Virus record (IMG/VR): IMGVR_UViG_3300032006_000850
Coordinates: 1-20,367 of that record
Length of the DNA stretch: 20,367 nucleotides
Origin: a virus
Reading direction: 5' to 3' (one strand)
Positions 5,205-20,367 of this stretch are shown here, one piece after another. Position numbers and translations under genes: made by a program. The number at the start of each line of letters is the position of its first letter. Position 1 is the stretch's first letter. The notes under the pieces are model-generated. The model saw nothing but the letters and a program-made list of their open reading frames with translations, was not told where the DNA came from and did not search any database.

Positions 5205-5681
5205 TTATATATACCCCTCATGTCCCATATCAATTCTAGAATTTTGTGATTCTATACTTCCTCCATATGGAGTACCATCACCTTGTAATAGAGATGCAAA
5301 ATCCATATGTCCTGTCTTTCCATTCTGTGCAGCAGTATAGCAAACTGGAATATGTGTTCGCCCACCGGATGTATCTCGTACTGATTTATATCTTAATACG
5401 ATCTCATTAGGACGACTACAAATCCCATTCCATACCATATCTTCTGGAAACAGAGGTTGGAAACTTGGATCACCTTTTATTGTTCCCCATGTTTTTTGTA
5501 AATCTTTTACTCTTTTATTCCAAAAGCAGTCTGTATATTCACACCAGACCACCTTTCCAAATTCCTCTTGAACATCTTCTTCAGATACACCTTCAGGTAA
5601 CTTATCTTCATAACCTAATGGATCATATCGTGATGATTCATTAAATTGAAACCTTAACTGACCCTCATTCTTTTTCCTCAT
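5205..5681 (-). CDS. Hypothetical protein with four cysteines
   Basis: I do not recognise this 158-residue protein. It has exactly four cysteines, Cys47 and Cys52 in WCEYTDCFW, Cys88 in GICSRPNE and Cys114 in IPVCYTAA. The fairly even layout of two nearby plus two later cysteines could form a zinc site. The region from 20 to 45 is acidic. The last 30 residues are Gly- and Ser-rich and probably flexible. The start at 5681 has a strong AAGGAGATA site seven bases upstream and overlaps the resolvase gene by 17 bases; the stop is two bases before terS. Lying between a Holliday junction resolvase and the terminase genes, a role in packaging or DNA processing is possible but unproven. Confidence 0.75.
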   Translation of the reverse strand: MRKKNEGQLRFQFNESSRYDPLGYEDKLPEGVSEEDVQEEFGKVVWCEYTDCFWNKRVKDLQKTWGTIKGDPSFQPLFPEDMVWNGICSRPNEIVLRYKSVRDTSGGRTHIPVCYTAAQNGKTGHMDFASLLQGDGTPYGGSIESQNSRIDMGHEGYI

Positions 5682-6168
5682 TTAATATCTCCTTCTTTAC
5701 TTTCCATGCTGCGATGCAAGCTGCATCTGCAAAATCCTGTTCGGGGAATACATCTCCCCACTTCTCTACTGCATGTGTCATTATATCAGATTTCTTTGCA
5801 TTTCCATTACCAATAATTTCTTTTTTCCATGATCTATTGTCTACTACCTCTACATCATATCCTGAAATATTACAGATGGTTCGAACACATCCGATAACAT
5901 TAGCAATTTCAATCGTTGTTTTAGGATTTGAAATAAAGATTGCTTGCTCTATCGCCACATAAACTTTTTCTGTCTTACTTATATATATTTTACTAAAAGT
6001 ATCCCAAAAACTCTTGGCAAAAACAGGGAATCTTTTTTCAAATGTCTTCTCTTTACTCTCCCATTTTTTCTGAGTTACTATCTTAAAGTCACTATCTAAA
6101 GCGACACAATGAATAGCTTTACTAGAACAATCGAACCCCAAATAAATAATTTGTTCCTCAGTCGTCAT
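5665..6168 (-). CDS. RuvC-like Holliday junction resolvase
   Basis: A predicted RNase H-fold nuclease that cuts branched DNA, in phages usually to clear junctions before packaging. From the ATG at 6168 it has 167 residues. Acidic residues fit the RuvC active site: Asp13 (YLGFDCSS), Glu74 (VAIEQAIF), Asp145 and Asp148 (DFADAAC). The spacings of 61, 71 and 3 nearly match those of E. coli RuvC (59, 72, 3). A longer in-frame start at 6201 exists, but nothing like a ribosome binding site precedes it, whereas AAGGTG lies five bases before 6168; that start also cuts the overlap with the upstream membrane-protein gene to 11 bases. It lies just upstream of the packaging genes. Confidence 0.87.
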   Translation of the reverse strand: MTTEEQIIYLGFDCSSKAIHCVALDSDFKIVTQKKWESKEKTFEKRFPVFAKSFWDTFSKIYISKTEKVYVAIEQAIFISNPKTTIEIANVIGCVRTICNISGYDVEVVDNRSWKKEIIGNGNAKKSDIMTHAVEKWGDVFPEQDFADAACIAAWKVKKEILNEEKE

Positions 6169-6349
6169 GGAACACCTTATGTACCTTTGGGTGCTTTGCA
6201 ACAGCTGCTACTACAAACCCAAATAAAATTGTAGCAATAAACAACATAAATATATTAATTTCAGTATATCGTCCAAGTATTATCAAAAAAGCATCTTCAA
6301 AAAAATGTAATATAGAAACAATAACTGTAAATGGTATTAATCCTTTCAT
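6158..6349 (-). CDS. Small two-span membrane protein
   Basis: A 63-residue protein dominated by two hydrophobic segments, about 4-25 (FTVIVSILHFF... to FLIIL) and 32-52 (NIFMLFIATILFGFVVAAV), followed by a short, charged, His-rich tail (KHPKVHKVFHDD). The family is unknown. Holin-like proteins can look like this, but there is no lysis gene beside it, so that label is not given. The start overlaps the stop of the preceding gene as ATGA and has a GAGGT motif just upstream, which suggests translational coupling. Confidence 0.7.
   Translation of the reverse strand: MKGLIPFTVIVSILHFFEDAFLIILGRYTEINIFMLFIATILFGFVVAAVAKHPKVHKVFHDD
6173..6178 (-). promoter_or_regulatory. Ribosome binding site deciding the RuvC-like start
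   Basis: AAGGTG on the minus strand, four to five bases before the ATG at 6168. The longer in-frame start at 6201 has no purine-rich site. Confidence 0.6.
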
Positions 6350-6867
6350 TGACCTCGCCCCGTGGTATTCTCCATTCGTAACGTAACAACTCTTGAAACA
6401 GTATTATACGCTGTCGTATATGTATTTAGCAAACCATTGATTCGAGTTTCAATTGCTTCTTGTTCAATAATTTCTCGTTTCAATTCTTTTAATTGTTCAT
6501 ACTTATCCATAACGGCTCCACGTATTTCATCACGAGTTAATTTTTTCTGTCCTGCCGACTCACGTTCATCAGCAATTCGAAATACTGCGGTAGCAAAACC
6601 TTCATCAAAAGCTGCTGCTAAAGCATTCTTCTTAGCTTGAGCATCTGCAATCTGGCTCTCTAGAAAAGCTTTATAACCTCCGTAAGCTACTAGAAATTCT
6701 GATAAATCTCTATTAGAAGCATTCATTAGATCAGAGAATTCTAAATGTTCTCGATCTTCTAAATTAACTGATAATCCCGGAACCATTAAAGAATCAACGT
6801 ATTGTGACGCTGTTCCTAATGCTTTTATAGGACTCCAATCGGTTGGACGCTTTTGCATTGACACCAT
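6346..6867 (-). CDS. Helical hypothetical protein, possible recombination mediator
   Basis: No confident family. The 173-residue protein is mostly predicted helix. Residues 50-95 (DLSEFLVAYGGYKAFLESQIADAQ and following) form one long amphipathic helix rich in Ala. Residues 112-160 (TRDEIRGAVMDKYEQLKELK, then IIEQEAIETRINGLLNTY) look like a second coiled-coil stretch ending in TVSRVVTLR. This layout loosely resembles UvsY-type recombination mediators, and the gene lies in a block with a RecA-like ATPase and a Cas4-like nuclease, but the likeness is weak and this is inference. The start at 6867 has GGAGGT five bases upstream and overlaps the preceding nuclease gene by 43 bases, the longest overlap here. 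Confidence 0.7.
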   Translation of the reverse strand: MVSMQKRPTDWSPIKALGTASQYVDSLMVPGLSVNLEDREHLEFSDLMNASNRDLSEFLVAYGGYKAFLESQIADAQAKKNALAAAFDEGFATAVFRIADERESAGQKKLTRDEIRGAVMDKYEQLKELKREIIEQEAIETRINGLLNTYTTAYNTVSRVVTLRMENTTGRGQ

Positions 6868-7490
6868 CTGTTACCTCCACATATATTTGGTATTTCAATC
6901 ATTTCCATAATTCTTAAACATCTATCTATAATTTCTTTCCATTTTATTGGATCACGCTGTAATTCGAAAGCTTTCAATTGTTGATCATTCTTATTTTCAT
7001 ATAATACCACACCATGATCTAAAGGTAAAAGGTTTAAATAAATCTGTAACTGTATCTCATGTTCTGGTTTAGGAGCCTGCTTTAATGCATTAAATCCTCT
7101 TGTATTAATTGACTTTAATTCTAAAGCAATTTCTTTATACTTATCGTGAGTTAATACAAAGTCAACTCGTCCTGAAATTACTGGATAGTCTAGCTTAACT
7201 CTCAATTCACGGGAAATTAATATATCTAAATTTGCGAAGTAGTCTGCCATTCGATCTTCTAGATAGGCTCCATTATCAAAAATACGTTGTAATTTAGCAT
7301 CCAACGGTCGTTCTTGTATAAACCCATTATAAGCTAAATACAAATATCTATCACATGTATTACCTAATGCTGAAGGATAAAACTTTCCCGCCTCCATTGG
7401 GCTAAATTCCCCCTCCAGATATTTATCTAAAGATTTTAATAGCCACTTATCTTGGGAATAGTTTATTCCAATTTGCTTAATGCCTGCCAT
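6825..7490 (-). CDS. Cas4-like PD-(D/E)XK exonuclease with Fe-S cluster cysteines
   Basis: A predicted RecB/Cas4-superfamily nuclease of 221 residues. The nuclease core is GRVDFVL (107-113, Asp110), then IALELKSIN (121-129) with Glu124 and Lys126, and a Q-motif around EIQLQIYL (145-152). One cysteine near the N-terminus (Cys46 in GNTCDRYLY) and three near the C-terminus (Cys204, Cys210, Cys212) match the split 1+3 arrangement that binds a 4Fe-4S cluster in Cas4/AddB proteins. There is no cas1, cas2 or repeat array here, so this is a phage recombination or DNA-processing nuclease, not a CRISPR gene. AGGAGA lies before the ATG. The start overlaps the DUF559-like gene by 28 bases. Confidence 0.87.
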   Translation of the reverse strand: MAGIKQIGINYSQDKWLLKSLDKYLEGEFSPMEAGKFYPSALGNTCDRYLYLAYNGFIQERPLDAKLQRIFDNGAYLEDRMADYFANLDILISRELRVKLDYPVISGRVDFVLTHDKYKEIALELKSINTRGFNALKQAPKPEHEIQLQIYLNLLPLDHGVVLYENKNDQQLKAFELQRDPIKWKEIIDRCLRIMEMIEIPNICGGNRWCQCKSVQPIGVL

Positions 7491-7765
7491 ATAGTCTCCT
7501 TTACATCCTTATAAGACACATCTTTTATATGTAAAACGTGTTTTATCATTGGAAGTGTCATTAAATCCATGTCTCTTTTAACATCTCGTTTTTGTAAGTG
7601 TCCATACACACCGTCAGCTTCTATAACCATTCCGAGTTCAGAAATCCAAAAATCAACTGTATACCGCAAAAAGAAATGCTGTGGGTCATATCGTATCCCA
7701 AACTCATCCAATACTGTCGCAATTGCATACTCCTGTGGGGTAAAGTCTTTAGGCGGTAAGTTCAT
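7463..7765 (-). CDS. DUF559/Vsr-like small endonuclease-fold protein
   Basis: A 100-residue protein matching the DUF559 pattern, a relative of very-short-patch repair (Vsr) endonucleases with a PD-(D/E)XK-like fold. Visible elements are YTVDFWI (35-41, Asp38), MVIEADGVYGH (46-56, Glu49, Asp51, His56) and RDVKRDMDLM (60-69), followed by the KHVLHIKD strand (75-82). It therefore probably binds or nicks DNA, but the substrate is unknown. It overlaps recA-like by 17 bases upstream and the Cas4-like gene by 28 bases downstream. No clear ribosome binding site precedes its ATG, so translation may be coupled to recA. Two nuclease folds directly after a RecA gene point to a recombination or repair job. 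Confidence 0.8.
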   Translation of the reverse strand: MNLPPKDFTPQEYAIATVLDEFGIRYDPQHFFLRYTVDFWISELGMVIEADGVYGHLQKRDVKRDMDLMTLPMIKHVLHIKDVSYKDVKETIWQALSKLE

Positions 7766-8690
7766 TCTGTAAACTCAAGAATTCCTGTGGATTCTCAGTA
7801 AAAAATTTCTTTACACCATTCATACCCATTACTTTTTCATTCCTATATGTGTACCAAGGTCCGGATTGCTGAATTAATTTTTGAGTAATTCCTTCACGAA
7901 TAAAGCTTTCCATAACATCAATACCTCCGTCTACTCTAAACGGTACAACAGCTGATCGCCAATTCTCTCCACCTACCTTGCTTTTTCGTAATCGTACTTC
8001 CATATCAAATCCAACGTTATCATTACCGTCTTTAATCCATCCATTACGTCGTACCTGCAATAGGAAATGAGCAAAGAAAGACTGTGCCAATCCTCCGGGC
8101 ATATTGTCTAATGCTACGGGTCCCATACTAGATCGAACTTGGTTAATCGCTATAAATGCTGATCCATGTTTCAAATTAGGTAATAATTTTGGTAACGAAC
8201 TATTAACGAATCTTGCCTGCCATGCAATAGGGCTATAAGAAAAGTCTTGCTCATTAACCGCTGTTGGTACAAGTCCTGCAACACTATCTAATACGATTAC
8301 ATCTACACCCGCTTGCATTAACTCACGAGCAGTATCCATTGCCTCTTCACCATTAGTTGGTTGAGACACAATAACTTTAGTTGTATCTACTCCGCAACGT
8401 TCATTCCACCCTGAATCCCATGAAAGTTCTGTATCAATCCATGCAGCAATTCCTCCTTCTGCTTGGACATTAGCTACTACCTGAGATGCTAAATATGATT
8501 TTCCTACATTAGTCGGTCCATACATTAGAGTCATTCTCTTTTTAGGTATGCCACCGCCAGTAAGAGTATCAAGAGCAGGAATCCCGAAAGCGATACGTCC
8601 GAAAGAGAATTCATCGCTATCCCCCCGTAATACATTCAGATTTTTAGTTTTTAATAATTGTTCAATAGCTTCTTCAGCTGTTCGTTTCAT
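7749..8690 (-). CDS. recA: RecA-like recombinase
   Basis: An ATP-dependent strand-exchange protein of 313 residues from the ATG at 8690. Numbering from there: Walker A GPTNVGKS (58-65), the DTE motif with catalytic Glu88 (WIDTELSWDS), Walker B DVIVLDSVAG (130-139), and IAINQVRSSMG (181-191), the motif with the nucleotide-sensing Gln. NMPGGLAQSFFAH (196-208) fits the DNA-binding L2 region, followed by the VRLRKSKVGG strand. It is shorter than bacterial RecA and lacks an obvious large C-terminal domain. An upstream in-frame start at 8771 would add 27 residues with no RecA likeness; AGGAGG five bases before 8690 decides the start. It begins the block of recombination nucleases. Confidence 0.92.
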   Translation of the reverse strand: MKRTAEEAIEQLLKTKNLNVLRGDSDEFSFGRIAFGIPALDTLTGGGIPKKRMTLMYGPTNVGKSYLASQVVANVQAEGGIAAWIDTELSWDSGWNERCGVDTTKVIVSQPTNGEEAMDTARELMQAGVDVIVLDSVAGLVPTAVNEQDFSYSPIAWQARFVNSSLPKLLPNLKHGSAFIAINQVRSSMGPVALDNMPGGLAQSFFAHFLLQVRRNGWIKDGNDNVGFDMEVRLRKSKVGGENWRSAVVPFRVDGGIDVMESFIREGITQKLIQQSGPWYTYRNEKVMGMNGVKKFFTENPQEFLSLQNELTA

Positions 8691-15319: not shown

Positions 15320-15719
15320 GTTTTAATCCATCTAACCTCCATCCTTTGTATTGACATTGCTTGCTGCAATATATTCGATTATAACCTGCTTTTGCCGCCC
15401 ATGTCAACCTAGAACGTTTCCTAGTGAAAACTAGTCGACAGAAAGAACACTTTACAGAAATATTACGATATTTGTCTTTACATGAGGAAGAGCAGAATAC
15501 TTTAGATGAACCTTTTTTACCAGTATAACGTAAAACTACTTGACATTGTTTACAAGAGTATTTATATTGAAATGGGCGTGGTGCTGATGTAGGTAGTCCA
15601 GCCTTCTTTAGAATTTTATGGACATACTGTCGACTAACTCCTACTTCTTTTGCAATCTGATTTGAGGGCTTTAATGGGTATTGTTTCCGATAACGTATGA
15701 TTTTTAGCTTGGCTCTCAT
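15309..15719 (-). CDS. DNA-binding protein with helix-turn-helix and two zinc-finger-like units
   Basis: A 136-residue basic protein. Residues 15-42 form a clear helix-turn-helix (NQIAKEVGVSRQYVHKILKK). Two similar cysteine units follow: Cys56-X2-Cys59 with Cys76-X3-Cys80 (KVFCSSSCKDKYR), and Cys91-X2-Cys94 with Cys118-X3-Cys122 (RIYCSKQCQYKGW). Each should bind one zinc, and the FCSxxC motif resembles MYM/TRASH-type fingers. It may be a transcription regulator working with the sigma factor directly after it, or a remnant of a homing-endonuclease DNA-binding domain; no nuclease motif is present. The start codon overlaps the tail gene stop as TAATG, with no clear ribosome site, so coupled translation is likely. 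Confidence 0.75.
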   Translation of the reverse strand: MRAKLKIIRYRKQYPLKPSNQIAKEVGVSRQYVHKILKKAGLPTSAPRPFQYKYSCKQCQVVLRYTGKKGSSKVFCSSSCKDKYRNISVKCSFCRLVFTRKRSRLTWAAKAGYNRIYCSKQCQYKGWRLDGLKHAN

Positions 15720-18700
15720 TAGGATTCAAGTGCAGCTATACGTGCCTCTAATTCTTTAATAGATGCTACTAATAACGGTATAATAGCTGAGTCATCAATA
15801 GTCTTGATATTCTCTATTTCTATTGCTGATCCTTCGGGCAAGGCATCAGCCCCGTCCACTTTAGGGCTAAAGTCCCCTATCTCATATGTATCATCTGCTA
15901 ATTTAATAACATCTAATTTAGTTGTGTTTGTATAGTCAGGTAATACTGTTCCAAAATTTGAGGCTATAAAACCATATTGAGTTGTTGTTACGTCAGTTCC
16001 ATCACTTACTCCAATGGCAGATTGATAAGCAGCTGTATATTTATATGTCTTAGGTGTTAGCAACTTCAAAGTGGTAGTGGCATTTGTTATATCAGCTATA
16101 TCAGTTTTAATTCGATCATCGGAAACGGTATCCCAACTAGACCCCCCCGAAGTTTTAGCAGCATCACCACTAACATAAAGATTATATGATACCGATCCGG
16201 TCGAATTAATACCTACATATCCATATTGTGTACTAGTATTAAGGCGAGCAGAACCTCGCATATAACGCCACGCTGATTCGGGACTATCAATATAGTTATT
16301 TGCGACAAAGTCATGATAATAATTACCTAGGAAAATATAACTATTGGTTGAAGCATTATCAATGATATAGCCATGTACAGTAAGATCATCAGTTATCAAA
16401 TCGGTGTATGCATCATGTACATGGTAATCAGCCCATACAGTAGTGTATGGGTTATCTAGTGCGCCGTCTCCTGAAGTAGTGGTTTTAATAACTTTATCTG
16501 TTCCTCCCGGACCACCTGCCGGGAGAGTAAACCAATTCGATGGTAAATTACTATTGGTGGCACGACCTGATAATGGACCTACATAATGTCCTACTAAATT
16601 CCAATCTATTACACTATAAGTATATGTAGTGCTTTGGTTTGCAATAAGCATTCCGACATCTGAATAATAATTCATGCCGAAAAGTGCGCCATTATTGGTA
16701 GACGATCCGTTTAGCCCATTAGCGTAACCTGCCCAATCCTGCTTAACACTTAATGTTAAAAGACGATTAGAGTCTGATAATCCTCCGTAATGCCAAGAAA
16801 GACCACTAAATAGGCTAGCTCCTTCATTAATAATAATTCCCCGATTATTTATGGCGACCGCCCCATCTCCTGACCCTGCTATAAGATATCCCCTATTAGT
16901 AGCAGTTCCTGCGGGAATGTGTAGGTGTGTTGTCCCGTCTCTTTGAGCAAATAATCCATCACTAGTTAACGCTACTCCATCTAATCCTGAAGCCCCTGAA
17001 CCATTTAATACTCCTGTTCCTGCAATTAAAACATTAGTTAAACTAAAACTAGAGGAAATATAATCTGCTGTAACCGTGCCTGCCGTAATATTTGCCCCGT
17101 CTATTGTAACGGTATTTGGGGACATAATAGATGACGGTGGCGTTATTCGTACCCAATCAGATGCATTTGATGATGTACCTGTATTATTGGCAGTAGCTAT
17201 ATTTGTACCTCTTTGAGCAGTATTCGTATGTAATGGAGTCGTTACCCACCAATCTCCTGACTGATAAGGTCCGGGAGGTGGACCATCGGAATTACTAGTT
17301 GTTCTAAATATTTTTCTTTTTAGTTCTGGAATTCTATTATCTGTCGCATTTCCCCCATTTCCAAGTGTGAACTCTCCCTGTGCATTAATATCTAATGTTA
17401 AATTTGCATTTAACAATTCACTATCAGTTGGCTGGCTGGTAATGTTAGTTCCCCATACGGCTCCAACTGTTGGTAAGTTTTGTCCCGTTCCAGAAAATAC
17501 ATTATCCCAATCATTAAGATTACTTTGATCTACCATTGATCCATTTATTAACATTTTTGCTTTTCCAGTAGTAGGGTCTAAGATAAACATCTCGTCACCC
17601 GTTGCATTATAACCCCTTAAACCATCATTTTTAAAAATAAATCCTGCTTGATCTGTTCCTGAACCGTCATTAACCGTTGCCGATGTTCGAATAAACCCAT
17701 TCGGATTTAAAGTAATAATAGTTGCATCTAAGGCTCCAGTAGCGATAGCATTAGCTGTAATAGAGTTGGCTGCTATATTATCAGCATTAATATTACCTAC
17801 CTTCGTACCAAAAGTTTGGACCGCTATTGAATAAGGATCATTAGGGGATTTATCTATAATAGCTAATAGTCCACGTACATCCGTATTTACTGCGGCATAA
17901 TCAGCAGTTCGTATAACAGGTACAGGAGTTCCAGTACTACCGTATTGACCATTGGCATCCTTTGTAAACCCTGTTAAATCAAAATAAACATAGCTTGTTC
18001 CCGCAGTTGTTATATTATTTAAATAACTAATCGATCCCGTCTCTAACAACGCTGTTGTATTATCAGCAAAACTTACTATTGGGTTAGTACCTGATGTTTG
18101 GCTCATAGTACATTGTGTTACAGATTCATTCGCCTGTCCTAAATTAACTGGTGCTATAATACCATTCCATGAAAATGGTTGGGTTCCTTTTCTATGTAAA
18201 GCGGCAGACATTGAATCAACTTTAATTATATCTCCCCCTTCAAATCGAATAAAATTCGGCACTTGTCCAGCCGCACCATTAAATCTTGCCCACTCTGCTC
18301 TAGTATCGCCGGGACCTCCTCTACGACACCATGCTATTATAAATTTATGAGATGCTGGCGTAAACATTTTAATGCTTCCAAAATCTTTAAAGGCAGGTCG
18401 TACTTGCAATTCTGTATCAGATTCTATAGGATCAAAGTAAATATAAAACGCCATGTATTCTTCCGGAATCATTGCAGATTCTGTATCTGGTAACTCTGCA
18501 TTACCTAATGCCGCATATGTATTTCCAGCATTAATATTATAAACTTTAGAACCAATTGATAAAATACCACTAGACCATCTAATTCGTGTAAGTTCATCTC
18601 CTAACGTACCGCTACTATATGTACCTGTGCTAAACACTCCTGAGAAATCGGGTGTCACACTAGCCTTTGGTATTGCGGACGTATGTAAAGCAGCAGCTTT

Positions 18701-20367
18701 TTGAACATCATAACTTCGTGCGCCGGGATCGTATCTTCGAGTTATGGTTGCTTCATATGGTCGGTCATCTTCTTCCCCAATAGATTTTAATGTGGTTCGT
18801 TTCGATCCCGAAACTTCTCGATATTCAGCTTCAACTAACATATGATTTCCTGCTATATTAGCTAATGTATTTTCAACTCTAATAGTTGAACCTGTCCGAG
18901 TTTGAGAATATATCTTTACATAATCTTGGCTGTTTGGATATCTATTCTGAACCGTTGTGCCTGCGGCAAAATTTATATGTAGTGACGCAGTATTGGATGC
19001 GGTTAACTCAGAAATATATCCATACGCTGTTTCGGTTGTCATAGTAGCATCTGAACCGAAAAATCTCACTACATCCCCAACTTTTATACCATAAGCTGAA
19101 AGATTAATGGCAGATGTATCATCAATTCGACGAATAGTTATATACTTATCAACGTCATGTAATCCCGATCCAGAAGATTCTATTGTATTAATTCGTCCTT
19201 CAAGCCATTGATAAGGAAATCTTTGAATATCATATTGTCCCGTTTTAATATTTTTTGAGGCTTTATACATCTTTGACATTGCTAATTGACGCACTTGATC
19301 TCGTCGTACTTTAACCTTGGCAGTAGCATTAGATGCTGTCAAATCAAAAGAAGCCATTTCAGGCGAAACATCTACTTGTAAAATATTTTTCATTCCTATA
19401 TAATGTTGTGGAACACCTGTCCATACGTCAGCAGCACTTAAATCAATACGGGCAGTAGCCTGACTATAACGTCCTCGTAAAATTGCAAATGAACTGCTTC
19501 CCGTATTAGCATTAGGGAAGTCTATCTCATCATATTCAAATCTATCAACCCGTCCATCTGATGCTACCGTAGGATACCATTGTGTAACATCATTATGTGA
19601 AACCATCATAATCTTTTTATTTGCTTCTGTAGTAGCTGTTCCCGTATTTACATTAGCAGCTTCCACCTCTAAAAATTGTACATGTCCTACAATACCTTGA
19701 AACGTATATCCAGACATTGAAGCATCTGATGATCCACTTTGAGTGGAATTTTCGTTAGTTGTAGTCCACAATTCTAAAGGTTCAGCAGACATGGGAGTTC
19801 CAGCTAACATTGCACCATTAATAGTGGCATTATCTGGATCACCCCAATATGATGGATTCGGATCATATTCCCATTCATGATTTGGATGTGATCCTCCAGT
19901 TACCTTTCTAGGATATGAGTATTTAAAAACTTTTTCAACCTCTTCTACGCTAGGTGACCACATAACAGTCGCTTCCCCACCACTAGATTTTTCTGGTGGT
20001 TGAACAGCAACACCAATTTGTGGACTAACTGATTGGTCGAACCATTCATGCTCCGAATTTATTGACCACGGACATAGTTTTCCGGTTTGACCCCAACCAT
20101 CTCCATTTAATAGATCACAATCAGCTTGATACCATGTTGTAGAAGCGTCTACTCTTCCGTTACTTCCGGTTCTCAGCCCTGAATAACTAGGGTCGTTAGT
20201 ATCAAGAGAATTAGCAGTAAAATCTGGTCGATACCATTTCTGCACAGGAAAATCTGGTGTTGCTGGAGAATTATGCATTGCTGTGCCTCTCCAATAAAAA
20301 TCTTGATCAAAAGTACTTCCTATTCCAGAAGGGTTACCTCCTCGAACATTATAAACATATAGTAGTT
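15719..20367 (-). CDS. Large tail fibre or tail protein with C-terminal peptidase S74 domain (partial, 5' end outside window)
   Basis: A very large virion protein. An ATG at 20278 with GGAGAGG upstream could start it (1519 residues), but the frame stays open to the window edge and its codons (RGGNPSGIGSTFDQDFYWRG region) look coding, so the true start is probably outside. The first two thirds are beta-rich, with a helix-linker stretch NINADNIAANSITANAIA (around 17740-17800), a type seen in phage fibres. The C-terminus has the S74 signature TVSDDRIKTDI (about 16090-16125): Ser and Lys form the self-cleavage dyad. Cleavage would release a chaperone of about 134 residues, ending in a coiled coil (IKELEARIAALES) typical of the family. 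It should recognise the host surface. Its stop overlaps the next gene (TAATG). Confidence 0.9.
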   Translation of the reverse strand, partial: LLYVYNVRGGNPSGIGSTFDQDFYWRGTAMHNSPATPDFPVQKWYRPDFTANSLDTNDPSYSGLRTGSNGRVDASTTWYQADCDLLNGDGWGQTGKLCPWSINSEHEWFDQSVSPQIGVAVQPPEKSSGGEATVMWSPSVEEVEKVFKYSYPRKVTGGSHPNHEWEYDPNPSYWGDPDNATINGAMLAGTPMSAEPLELWTTTNENSTQSGSSDASMSGYTFQGIVGHVQFLEVEAANVNTGTATTEANKKIMMVSHNDVTQWYPTVASDGRVDRFEYDEIDFPNANTGSSSFAILRGRYSQATARIDLSAADVWTGVPQHYIGMKNILQVDVSPEMASFDLTASNATAKVKVRRDQVRQLAMSKMYKASKNIKTGQYDIQRFPYQWLEGRINTIESSGSGLHDVDKYITIRRIDDTSAINLSAYGIKVGDVVRFFGSDATMTTETAYGYISELTASNTASLHINFAAGTTVQNRYPNSQDYVKIYSQTRTGSTIRVENTLANIAGNHMLVEAEYREVSGSKRTTLKSIGEEDDRPYEATITRRYDPGARSYDVQKAAALHTSAIPKASVTPDFSGVFSTGTYSSGTLGDELTRIRWSSGILSIGSKVYNINAGNTYAALGNAELPDTESAMIPEEYMAFYIYFDPIESDTELQVRPAFKDFGSIKMFTPASHKFIIAWCRRGGPGDTRAEWARFNGAAGQVPNFIRFEGGDIIKVDSMSAALHRKGTQPFSWNGIIAPVNLGQANESVTQCTMSQTSGTNPIVSFADNTTALLETGSISYLNNITTAGTSYVYFDLTGFTKDANGQYGSTGTPVPVIRTADYAAVNTDVRGLLAIIDKSPNDPYSIAVQTFGTKVGNINADNIAANSITANAIATGALDATIITLNPNGFIRTSATVNDGSGTDQAGFIFKNDGLRGYNATGDEMFILDPTTGKAKMLINGSMVDQSNLNDWDNVFSGTGQNLPTVGAVWGTNITSQPTDSELLNANLTLDINAQGEFTLGNGGNATDNRIPELKRKIFRTTSNSDGPPPGPYQSGDWWVTTPLHTNTAQRGTNIATANNTGTSSNASDWVRITPPSSIMSPNTVTIDGANITAGTVTADYISSSFSLTNVLIAGTGVLNGSGASGLDGVALTSDGLFAQRDGTTHLHIPAGTATNRGYLIAGSGDGAVAINNRGIIINEGASLFSGLSWHYGGLSDSNRLLTLSVKQDWAGYANGLNGSSTNNGALFGMNYYSDVGMLIANQSTTYTYSVIDWNLVGHYVGPLSGRATNSNLPSNWFTLPAGGPGGTDKVIKTTTSGDGALDNPYTTVWADYHVHDAYTDLITDDLTVHGYIIDNASTNSYIFLGNYYHDFVANNYIDSPESAWRYMRGSARLNTSTQYGYVGINSTGSVSYNLYVSGDAAKTSGGSSWDTVSDDRIKTDIADITNATTTLKLLTPKTYKYTAAYQSAIGVSDGTDVTTTQYGFIASNFGTVLPDYTNTTKLDVIKLADDTYEIGDFSPKVDGADALPEGSAIEIENIKTIDDSAIIPLLVASIKELEARIAALES

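Follow-up and report, generated by a model that had tools for sequence, protein, structure and literature searches.

Why should a phage carry genes for a recombinase, two nucleases of different kinds, a helical protein and a Holliday-junction resolvase in a single row, and why should a small DUF559 endonuclease be encoded directly between the recombinase and a Cas4-like nuclease? This arrangement occurs in the virus record IMGVR_UViG_3300032006_000850, of which positions 1–20,367 (20,367 bases, hereafter the window) were analyzed. The large open reading frames (ORFs) of the window lie on the minus strand, and the block in question is made up as follows, with coordinates that include stop codons.

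7749..8690, minus strand: RecA/UvsX-like recombinase of 313 amino acids (aa), from the ATG at 8690; a longer reading extends to 8771.
7463..7765, minus strand: small endonuclease with the DUF559/Vsr fold, 100 aa (PF04480 and an AlphaFold (AF2) fold).
6825..7490, minus strand: Cas4-like PD-(D/E)XK nuclease with 1+3 cysteines, 221 aa (phrog_1990 and other profiles).
6346..6867, minus strand: helical-hairpin protein of 173 aa, a candidate UvsY-like recombination mediator (AF2 fold).
6158..6349, minus strand: small membrane protein of 63 aa, a variable insert outside the conserved unit (from its distribution in relatives).
5665..6168 from an ATG, or from a TTG start at 6201, minus strand: RuvC-like Holliday-junction resolvase of 167 aa (PF02075 and phrog_159).
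5205..5681, minus strand: conserved cysteine-containing protein (orfB) between RuvC and the small terminase (invariant cysteines).

We find that the core genes keep their order, their active-site motifs and the mark of purifying selection across the relatives examined, and are inherited together, which is more than chance would produce. The explanation that we prefer, in which we place roughly even confidence, is that the block serves homologous recombination in an uncultured clade of tailed phages, as a module with a presynaptic layout like that of T4, some parts substituted and a domesticated DUF559 nuclease added. The gene positions and the overlaps of 4–43 bases in the original prediction are correct with ATG starts at 8690 for RecA and 6168 for RuvC: neighboring genes overlap by 17 (RecA/DUF559), 28 (DUF559/Cas4-like), 43 (Cas4-like/helical), 4 (helical/membrane) and 11 bases (membrane/RuvC), the last becoming 44 with the TTG start of RuvC.

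The family assignments made there for RecA, DUF559, the Cas4-like protein and RuvC were likewise confirmed by Pfam and PHROG matches. RecA matches PF00154 (E = 3.6e-45; 154.9 bits versus a cut-off of 27), its best PHROG is the UvsX-like phrog_97 (9.3e-49), and it scores 186.4 bits with TIGR02012, short of the equivalog cut-off of 325.3. Ten of its residues (G58, G63, K64, S65, E88, D135, Q184, R186, K236 and K238), which we take to be ATPase residues, are invariant in 24/24 aligned members. RuvC exceeds the PF02075 cut-off (E = 3.8e-6; 27.3 bits versus 22.2) and matches phrog_159 (2.5e-14). Like bacterial RuvC it has four invariant acidic residues (D13, E74, D145 and D148, in 26/26 aligned members), whereas it falls far short of the NCBIfam RuvC equivalog cut-offs. 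The catalytic roles that we give to invariant residues of these four proteins are presumed from the families to which they belong.

The Cas4-like protein matches the PHROG of Cas4-domain exonucleases (phrog_1990, E = 6.8e-21), and profile matches include 4ic1 (SSO0001; 6.1e-8) and 4r5q (3e-4), with which it shares the PD-(D/E)XK core and the 1+3 cysteines. It differs from these Cas4-type exonucleases in the spacing of its C-terminal cysteines (C-x5-C-x-C) and in scoring below the curated Cas4 cut-offs (14.1 versus 22.7 for PF01930; 21.7 versus 65 for TIGR00372). D110, E124, K126, Q147, Y151, C46, C204, C210 and C212 are nonetheless invariant in 32/32 aligned members, so that the early report of 1+3 cysteines proves accurate. 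We take these residues to be the active site, the QxxxY motif and the four cysteines, and on this assignment the protein bears the full motif set despite missing the formal cut-offs.

Relatives of the block were gathered in five scans of viral contigs, which together yielded 302 loci when the excerpt of the window itself is left uncounted. Four of the scan lists hold the best 80 by similarity to each query and hence carry a bias, and one contig is often represented by several loci. In all of the loci that contain RecA (283/283), the core gene that comes next is DUF559; the other 19 of the 302 stop short of RecA. As far as the contigs extend, the core order RecA, DUF559, Cas4-like, helical, RuvC, orfB, small terminase holds across all 302 loci with two exceptions, L212 and L099. 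The former, probably an assembly artefact, has a second Cas4-like and DUF559 pair on the opposite strand at the contig end. Of the relatives returned, the latter is the remotest (39% Cas4 identity), and it lacks the helical gene, in whose place it encodes a 108-aa cysteine-containing protein; the RecA/DUF559 order is untestable here because the contig starts at the Cas4-like gene. Nine patterns show one gene split into two ORFs (four RecA, three Cas4-like, two helical). When the loci were collapsed into 136 groups to remove redundancy (L099 and L275, with no complete core gene, share one group), the junctions were found as follows: RecA–DUF559 in 123, DUF559–Cas4-like in 123, Cas4-like–helical in 124, helical–RuvC in 115, RuvC–orfB in 108 and orfB–small terminase in 101.

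Because similarity-ranked lists favor near relatives, an unranked scan was made for DNA encoding the motif EADG[VI]YGH. This gave at least 120 stretches, and 80 loci, many of them on contigs already known, were read. RecA precedes and the Cas4-like gene follows DUF559 in 74 of these 80; five lie at a contig edge (three on one side, two on the other), and one (L309) matches no profile and is not DUF559, leaving no counter-example to the order among the 80 loci listed. Fusions between neighboring core genes were seen in none of the relatives' loci. Conservation of the RecA–DUF559–Cas4-like order in related phages, which the original prediction proposed as a check, thus holds within the clade, and a search of the clade for the opposite, an unconserved order in which DUF559 and Cas4-like genes occur without regard to recA, did not find it.

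Packing is tight at most core junctions. Among distinct loci in which both genes are complete, RecA and DUF559 overlap in 105/112, DUF559 and the Cas4-like gene in 109/111 (the other two lie within 60 bases), and the Cas4-like and helical genes in 69/107 (28 more lie within 60 bases). Helical and RuvC genes are separated by less than 60 bases in 83/111, and the remainder hold the membrane gene, ThyX or small ORFs between them. The statement that the row is interrupted only by a membrane protein is therefore true of the window and does not extend to its relatives, in which ThyX and further ORFs also occur as variable inserts: the membrane gene is present in 11/302 loci, representing three distinct related sequences, and a ThyX-like gene occupies the slot in L026 (8463–9305; PF02511, 6.5e-38, tested in this locus) and L085 (8171–8986).

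Identities and distances were computed for 97 non-identical complete loci, the window included. Median identities are 68% for RecA, 54% for DUF559, 48% for the Cas4-like protein, 51% for the helical protein and 48% for RuvC. DUF559 distances correlate with those of terminase (0.77), the Cas4-like protein (0.76) and PolA (0.71), within the range of other core genes; the correlation with RecA is lower (0.51), and so is that between RecA and terminase (0.46). Median ratios of nonsynonymous to synonymous substitution rates (dN/dS), computed on pairs above 80% identity, are 0.065 for RecA, 0.071 for DUF559, 0.071 for the Cas4-like gene, 0.036 for the helical gene and 0.091 for RuvC. In view of its low dN/dS and of distances that track the core genes, the copy of DUF559 next to recA is not drifting and shows no visible mobility. 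RecA alone is divergent in 7/97 loci (L020, L027, L035, L056, L121, L143 and L161), with a median identity to the rest of 55% compared to 69% among the rest, and DUF559, Cas4-like, helical, RuvC, large terminase and PolA are not divergent in these seven. In these loci recA may have been replaced in place or have evolved fast, the neighbors being retained. A rooted RecA tree was unusable, as the outgroups were too distant.

DUF559 itself matches PF04480 (E = 1.2e-5; 25.5 bits versus a cut-off of 20.6). Among 31 members, the Pfam DUF559 model matches 31 (E ≤ 0.01) and the Vsr model 13, and E12, D38, E49, D51, H56, R64 and D65 are invariant in all 31 aligned sequences. Its AF2 model (predicted local distance difference test score, pLDDT, of 86.8) is closest to 3r3p, the catalytic domain of the homing endonuclease I-Bth0305I (Z 11.8; 2.5 Å over 89 residues), which is also the best solved match by profile (E = 3.8e-6). 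The fold also resembles the DUF559 protein NGO0050 (3hrl, Z 11.1) and Vsr (1cw0, Z 10.0; 1vsr, Z 9.0); E49-A-D51 occupies, in the alignment, the place of F-T-H in Vsr. We take the I-Bth0305I gene to be located in an intron within the recA of a Bacillus phage. According to a published account, that enzyme is multi-domain with a DNA target of up to nearly 60 bp, and in EDxHD homing endonucleases the nuclease domain is tethered to an extended DNA-binding region (PMC3943268). The window protein, in contrast, is the nuclease domain alone, with an E-x-D-G...G-H motif, part of a gene block and present at every RecA locus seen. All of its 100 aa belong to the nuclease domain, and the extended DNA-binding region is absent; since the aligned domain of 3r3p comprises residues 167–263, the N-terminal part of 3r3p has no counterpart here.

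The same fold invites the view that DUF559 is a free-standing homing endonuclease of the selfish kind, whose target would be recA or the flank of recA in phages without a DUF559 gene. Besides the kinship with I-Bth0305I, this would account for a second DUF559 copy in G004, one of eight large related records (L434:3597–3929, minus strand, 110 aa, E = 3.1e-15), which is a distant copy lying elsewhere among structural-looking genes, has Q in place of E49, gives no Pfam match and is the sole sign of DUF559 movement; an HNH endonuclease gene at the matching place in a remote phage, described below, fits as well. Such an element should nevertheless be polymorphic, and the site is not: none of the 283 RecA loci lacks DUF559. 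The gene, moreover, is constrained as strongly as recA and tracks the core genes, it overlaps both neighbors in nearly all distinct loci, and its product lacks the N-terminal part of 3r3p, all of which makes selfish homing quite improbable. These comparisons suggest instead that the lineage can move and that the copy adjoining recA appears fixed. Most likely, DUF559 is a domesticated Vsr-fold endonuclease that came from a mobile endonuclease lineage and is now a permanent recA neighbor.

Beyond the clade, Gordonia phage GMA6 (NC_030906.1, 65953–71153) encodes RecA/UvsX-like, Cas4-like and RuvC proteins collinearly on one strand within ∼5.2 kb, in the order and orientation of the window clade; hence, recA, Cas4-like and RuvC genes go together more widely. 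The full GMA6 order is RecA, HNH, small genes, Cas4-like, a small ORF, a 145-aa protein, another ORF and RuvC. Its Cas4-like protein is unannotated and was recognized by the clade profile (4.8e-9) and PHROG (9.7e-15). GMA6 differs from the window in the HNH endonuclease after RecA (PF13392, 1.7e-9), in the small genes between, and in the 145-aa protein at the helical position, unrelated by sequence; there is no DUF559 match in its recombination region. Outside the clade, then, the RecA–DUF559–Cas4-like order was not seen, and DUF559 after recA is peculiar to this clade, with another type of endonuclease there in GMA6.

Other records gave less. Of the two other phages read, Bacillus phage KLEB27-3 carries its Cas4-like and RuvC matches on opposite strands, and Mycobacterium phage Kumao gave a match to RecA alone, in both cases within the stretches covered. 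Across 50,697 phage records, neither the terminase (E ≤ 1e-5) nor the helical protein (E ≤ 0.01) found a match, RecA and the Cas4-like protein have many remote relatives, and a DNA-level search of phages returned no match to the window. The one partial DUF559 match, in Thermus phage phiLo, is contained in a larger protein whose gene lies near restriction-like ones; the stretch displayed has no annotated recA, and the match was set aside. Among genome contigs, the helical profile found no relative and the Cas4-like profile a single contig from a Nanoarchaeota bin, whose ORFs hold no such block. In the open-licence papers searched, none brought UvsX, Cas4, RuvC and UvsY together; papers with DUF559, recA and phage dealt, by their titles and the start of their abstracts, with other subjects, and two on viral PolA neighbors (PMC6302109, PMC9069017) contain no mention of Cas4, RuvC or UvsX.

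The helical protein has no convincing match to a named family in PHROG, Pfam or NCBIfam. Its AF2 model (pLDDT 85.8) is a long helical hairpin, and in a VIA fold search with 952 aligned chains T4 UvsY entries occupy the top four rows (Z 10.7, 10.2, 10.1 and 10.0), aligned over 124–129 residues, nearly the whole UvsY chains; the next row has a Z of 9.1. The top 50 of a viral fold library include the UvsY of S-CAM3 and single-stranded DNA (ssDNA)-binding proteins of Aeromonas and Bacillus phages. As an assignment by sequence, UvsY was dropped, given that PHROGs, Pfam and hhalign lend it no support. We therefore treat the likeness as a structural lead rather than demonstrated homology, drawn from the predicted fold and the place beside a UvsX-like gene, and on the strength of the model we propose ssDNA binding and recombinase loading as a candidate mediator role.

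With these parts, a pathway can be sketched whose biochemical steps most likely follow the T4 scheme, by analogy with which they are drawn (T4 roles as given in PMC3016280). The Cas4-like nuclease would resect DNA ends and expose a 3′ tail, the role of gp46/47 in T4. It is the evident candidate for resection since PF00149 and PF13476 each match none of the eight large related records (57–85 kb, perhaps incomplete), the controls being positive in 14/14 genomes; these eight records would thus seem to have no obvious gp46/47-type complex, subject to their possible incompleteness. An SSB-like protein, encoded upstream (weak match), would coat the tail, the helical-hairpin protein, with its UvsY-resembling predicted fold, would load the RecA/UvsX-like recombinase, and the filament would invade a homologue and prime replication or repair. 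The RuvC-like protein could then cut junctions and clear branches before terminase packages the DNA. DUF559, which lacks a homing-enzyme DNA-binding region, most likely nicks or trims recombination intermediates, and this role is the weakest step of the explanation. Compared with T4 (UvsX, UvsY, gp32, gp46/47 and gp49), the window has parallels to the recombinase, the SSB, the end nuclease and the resolvase, and a helical protein for which UvsY is the best VIA fold match. It differs in that its end nuclease is Cas4-like, its resolvase is RuvC-like, its helical protein is dissimilar to UvsY in sequence, a DUF559 protein is added, and the genes form one block.

A number of observations weigh against such a module. 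Fixed synteny within one clade may reflect common descent, and the support consists of gene content, order, constraint and folds, from which interactions and biochemistry are inferred. For the helical protein, a Z of 10 is indecisive, as a common helical arrangement reaches such values; Foldseek used by itself found nothing at E ≤ 0.001, and hhalign against a 13-member UvsY alignment gave a probability of 0.5% and a score of 15.7, inside the range of 50 shuffled controls (maximum 20.3). The 145-aa protein of GMA6 is not similar to the helical family (probability 0.9%). Finally, small ORFs lie between RecA and DUF559 in 7/112 distinct loci (L045, L047, L060, L179, L193, L197 and L288; a recurrent insert starting MS-x-DNY(I/V/L)L), and a gap of 705–819 bases follows the Cas4-like gene in 10/107. 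In L243 this gap is filled by a 238-aa ORF (7878–8594) with only a weak PRAI match, and nine others have similar gaps. These extra ORFs mean that contiguity is not essential.

Entry of other ORFs into the block would also be expected if these genes are neighbors merely through membership in one replication, nucleotide and packaging operon, their nucleases serving separate tasks. The same transcription unit includes PolA, primase, helicase, weak MazG-like and weak SSB-like genes, NrdA and terminase genes, and synteny extends over this wider stretch as well, so that the recombination genes are not set apart by their order alone. We nonetheless consider this account rather unlikely: the steps carried out by RecA, a Cas4-like nuclease and RuvC complement one another within a single known process, and the three are also collinear in GMA6, a cultured phage far removed from the clade. 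Alternatively, DUF559 and the Cas4-like protein might mainly degrade host or invading DNA, feeding phage DNA synthesis or countering defence. NrdA in the operon and ThyX in relatives are compatible with this idea, which still strikes us as unlikely, because two genes that lie between RecA and the helical gene and are strictly conserved along with them are better explained by recombination. The claim of a single recombination pathway gains from GMA6, where RecA, Cas4-like and RuvC share order and strand, and the pathway as such is still an inference.

A bolder version, which we put forward tentatively and regard as doubtful, is that domestication turned a Vsr-fold nuclease of homing lineage into a partner dedicated to RecA, acting on the filament or D-loop and working with the Cas4-like exonuclease, in a recombination system that also has a UvsY-fold loader and RuvC. 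Homing-type nucleases may repeatedly land at the site that follows recA in phages (DUF559 in the window, HNH in GMA6), and one of them may have turned essential. The individual parts are of known kinds; the way they are combined is new, as is a Vsr-fold nuclease fixed next to recA. The window would offer a compact recombination kit from phages whose terminase has no match in the phage records searched, a possible case of a homing-type nuclease become a permanent recombination gene, and a candidate UvsY-like loader missed by sequence searches. If the helical protein does load the recombinase, mediators of this fold are perhaps commoner in phages than annotated.

Across the whole window, in the order of transcription, genes for a tail-fibre-like protein (weak), HNH, a sigma factor, a DnaB-type helicase, primase, an SSB-like protein (weak, 2.1e-4) and PolA come first. 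They are followed by DUF1599-like and MazG-like genes (both below the Pfam cut-off), the block from RecA/UvsX-like through DUF559, Cas4-like, helical and tiny membrane proteins to RuvC-like, and then the cysteine-containing protein, the small terminase (weak, 2.8e-4), the large terminase and ribonucleotide reductase (NrdA). A promoter and terminator scan gave no signal exceeding that of shuffled sequences. The 1519-aa ORF at 15719–20278 (minus strand) has as its sole match a tail-fibre one at the C-terminus (3.8e-8). The orfB product has no family match in PHROG, Pfam or NCBIfam searches; its cysteines C47, C52, C88 and C114 are invariant in 21/21 aligned members, a pattern that is possibly indicative of metal binding.

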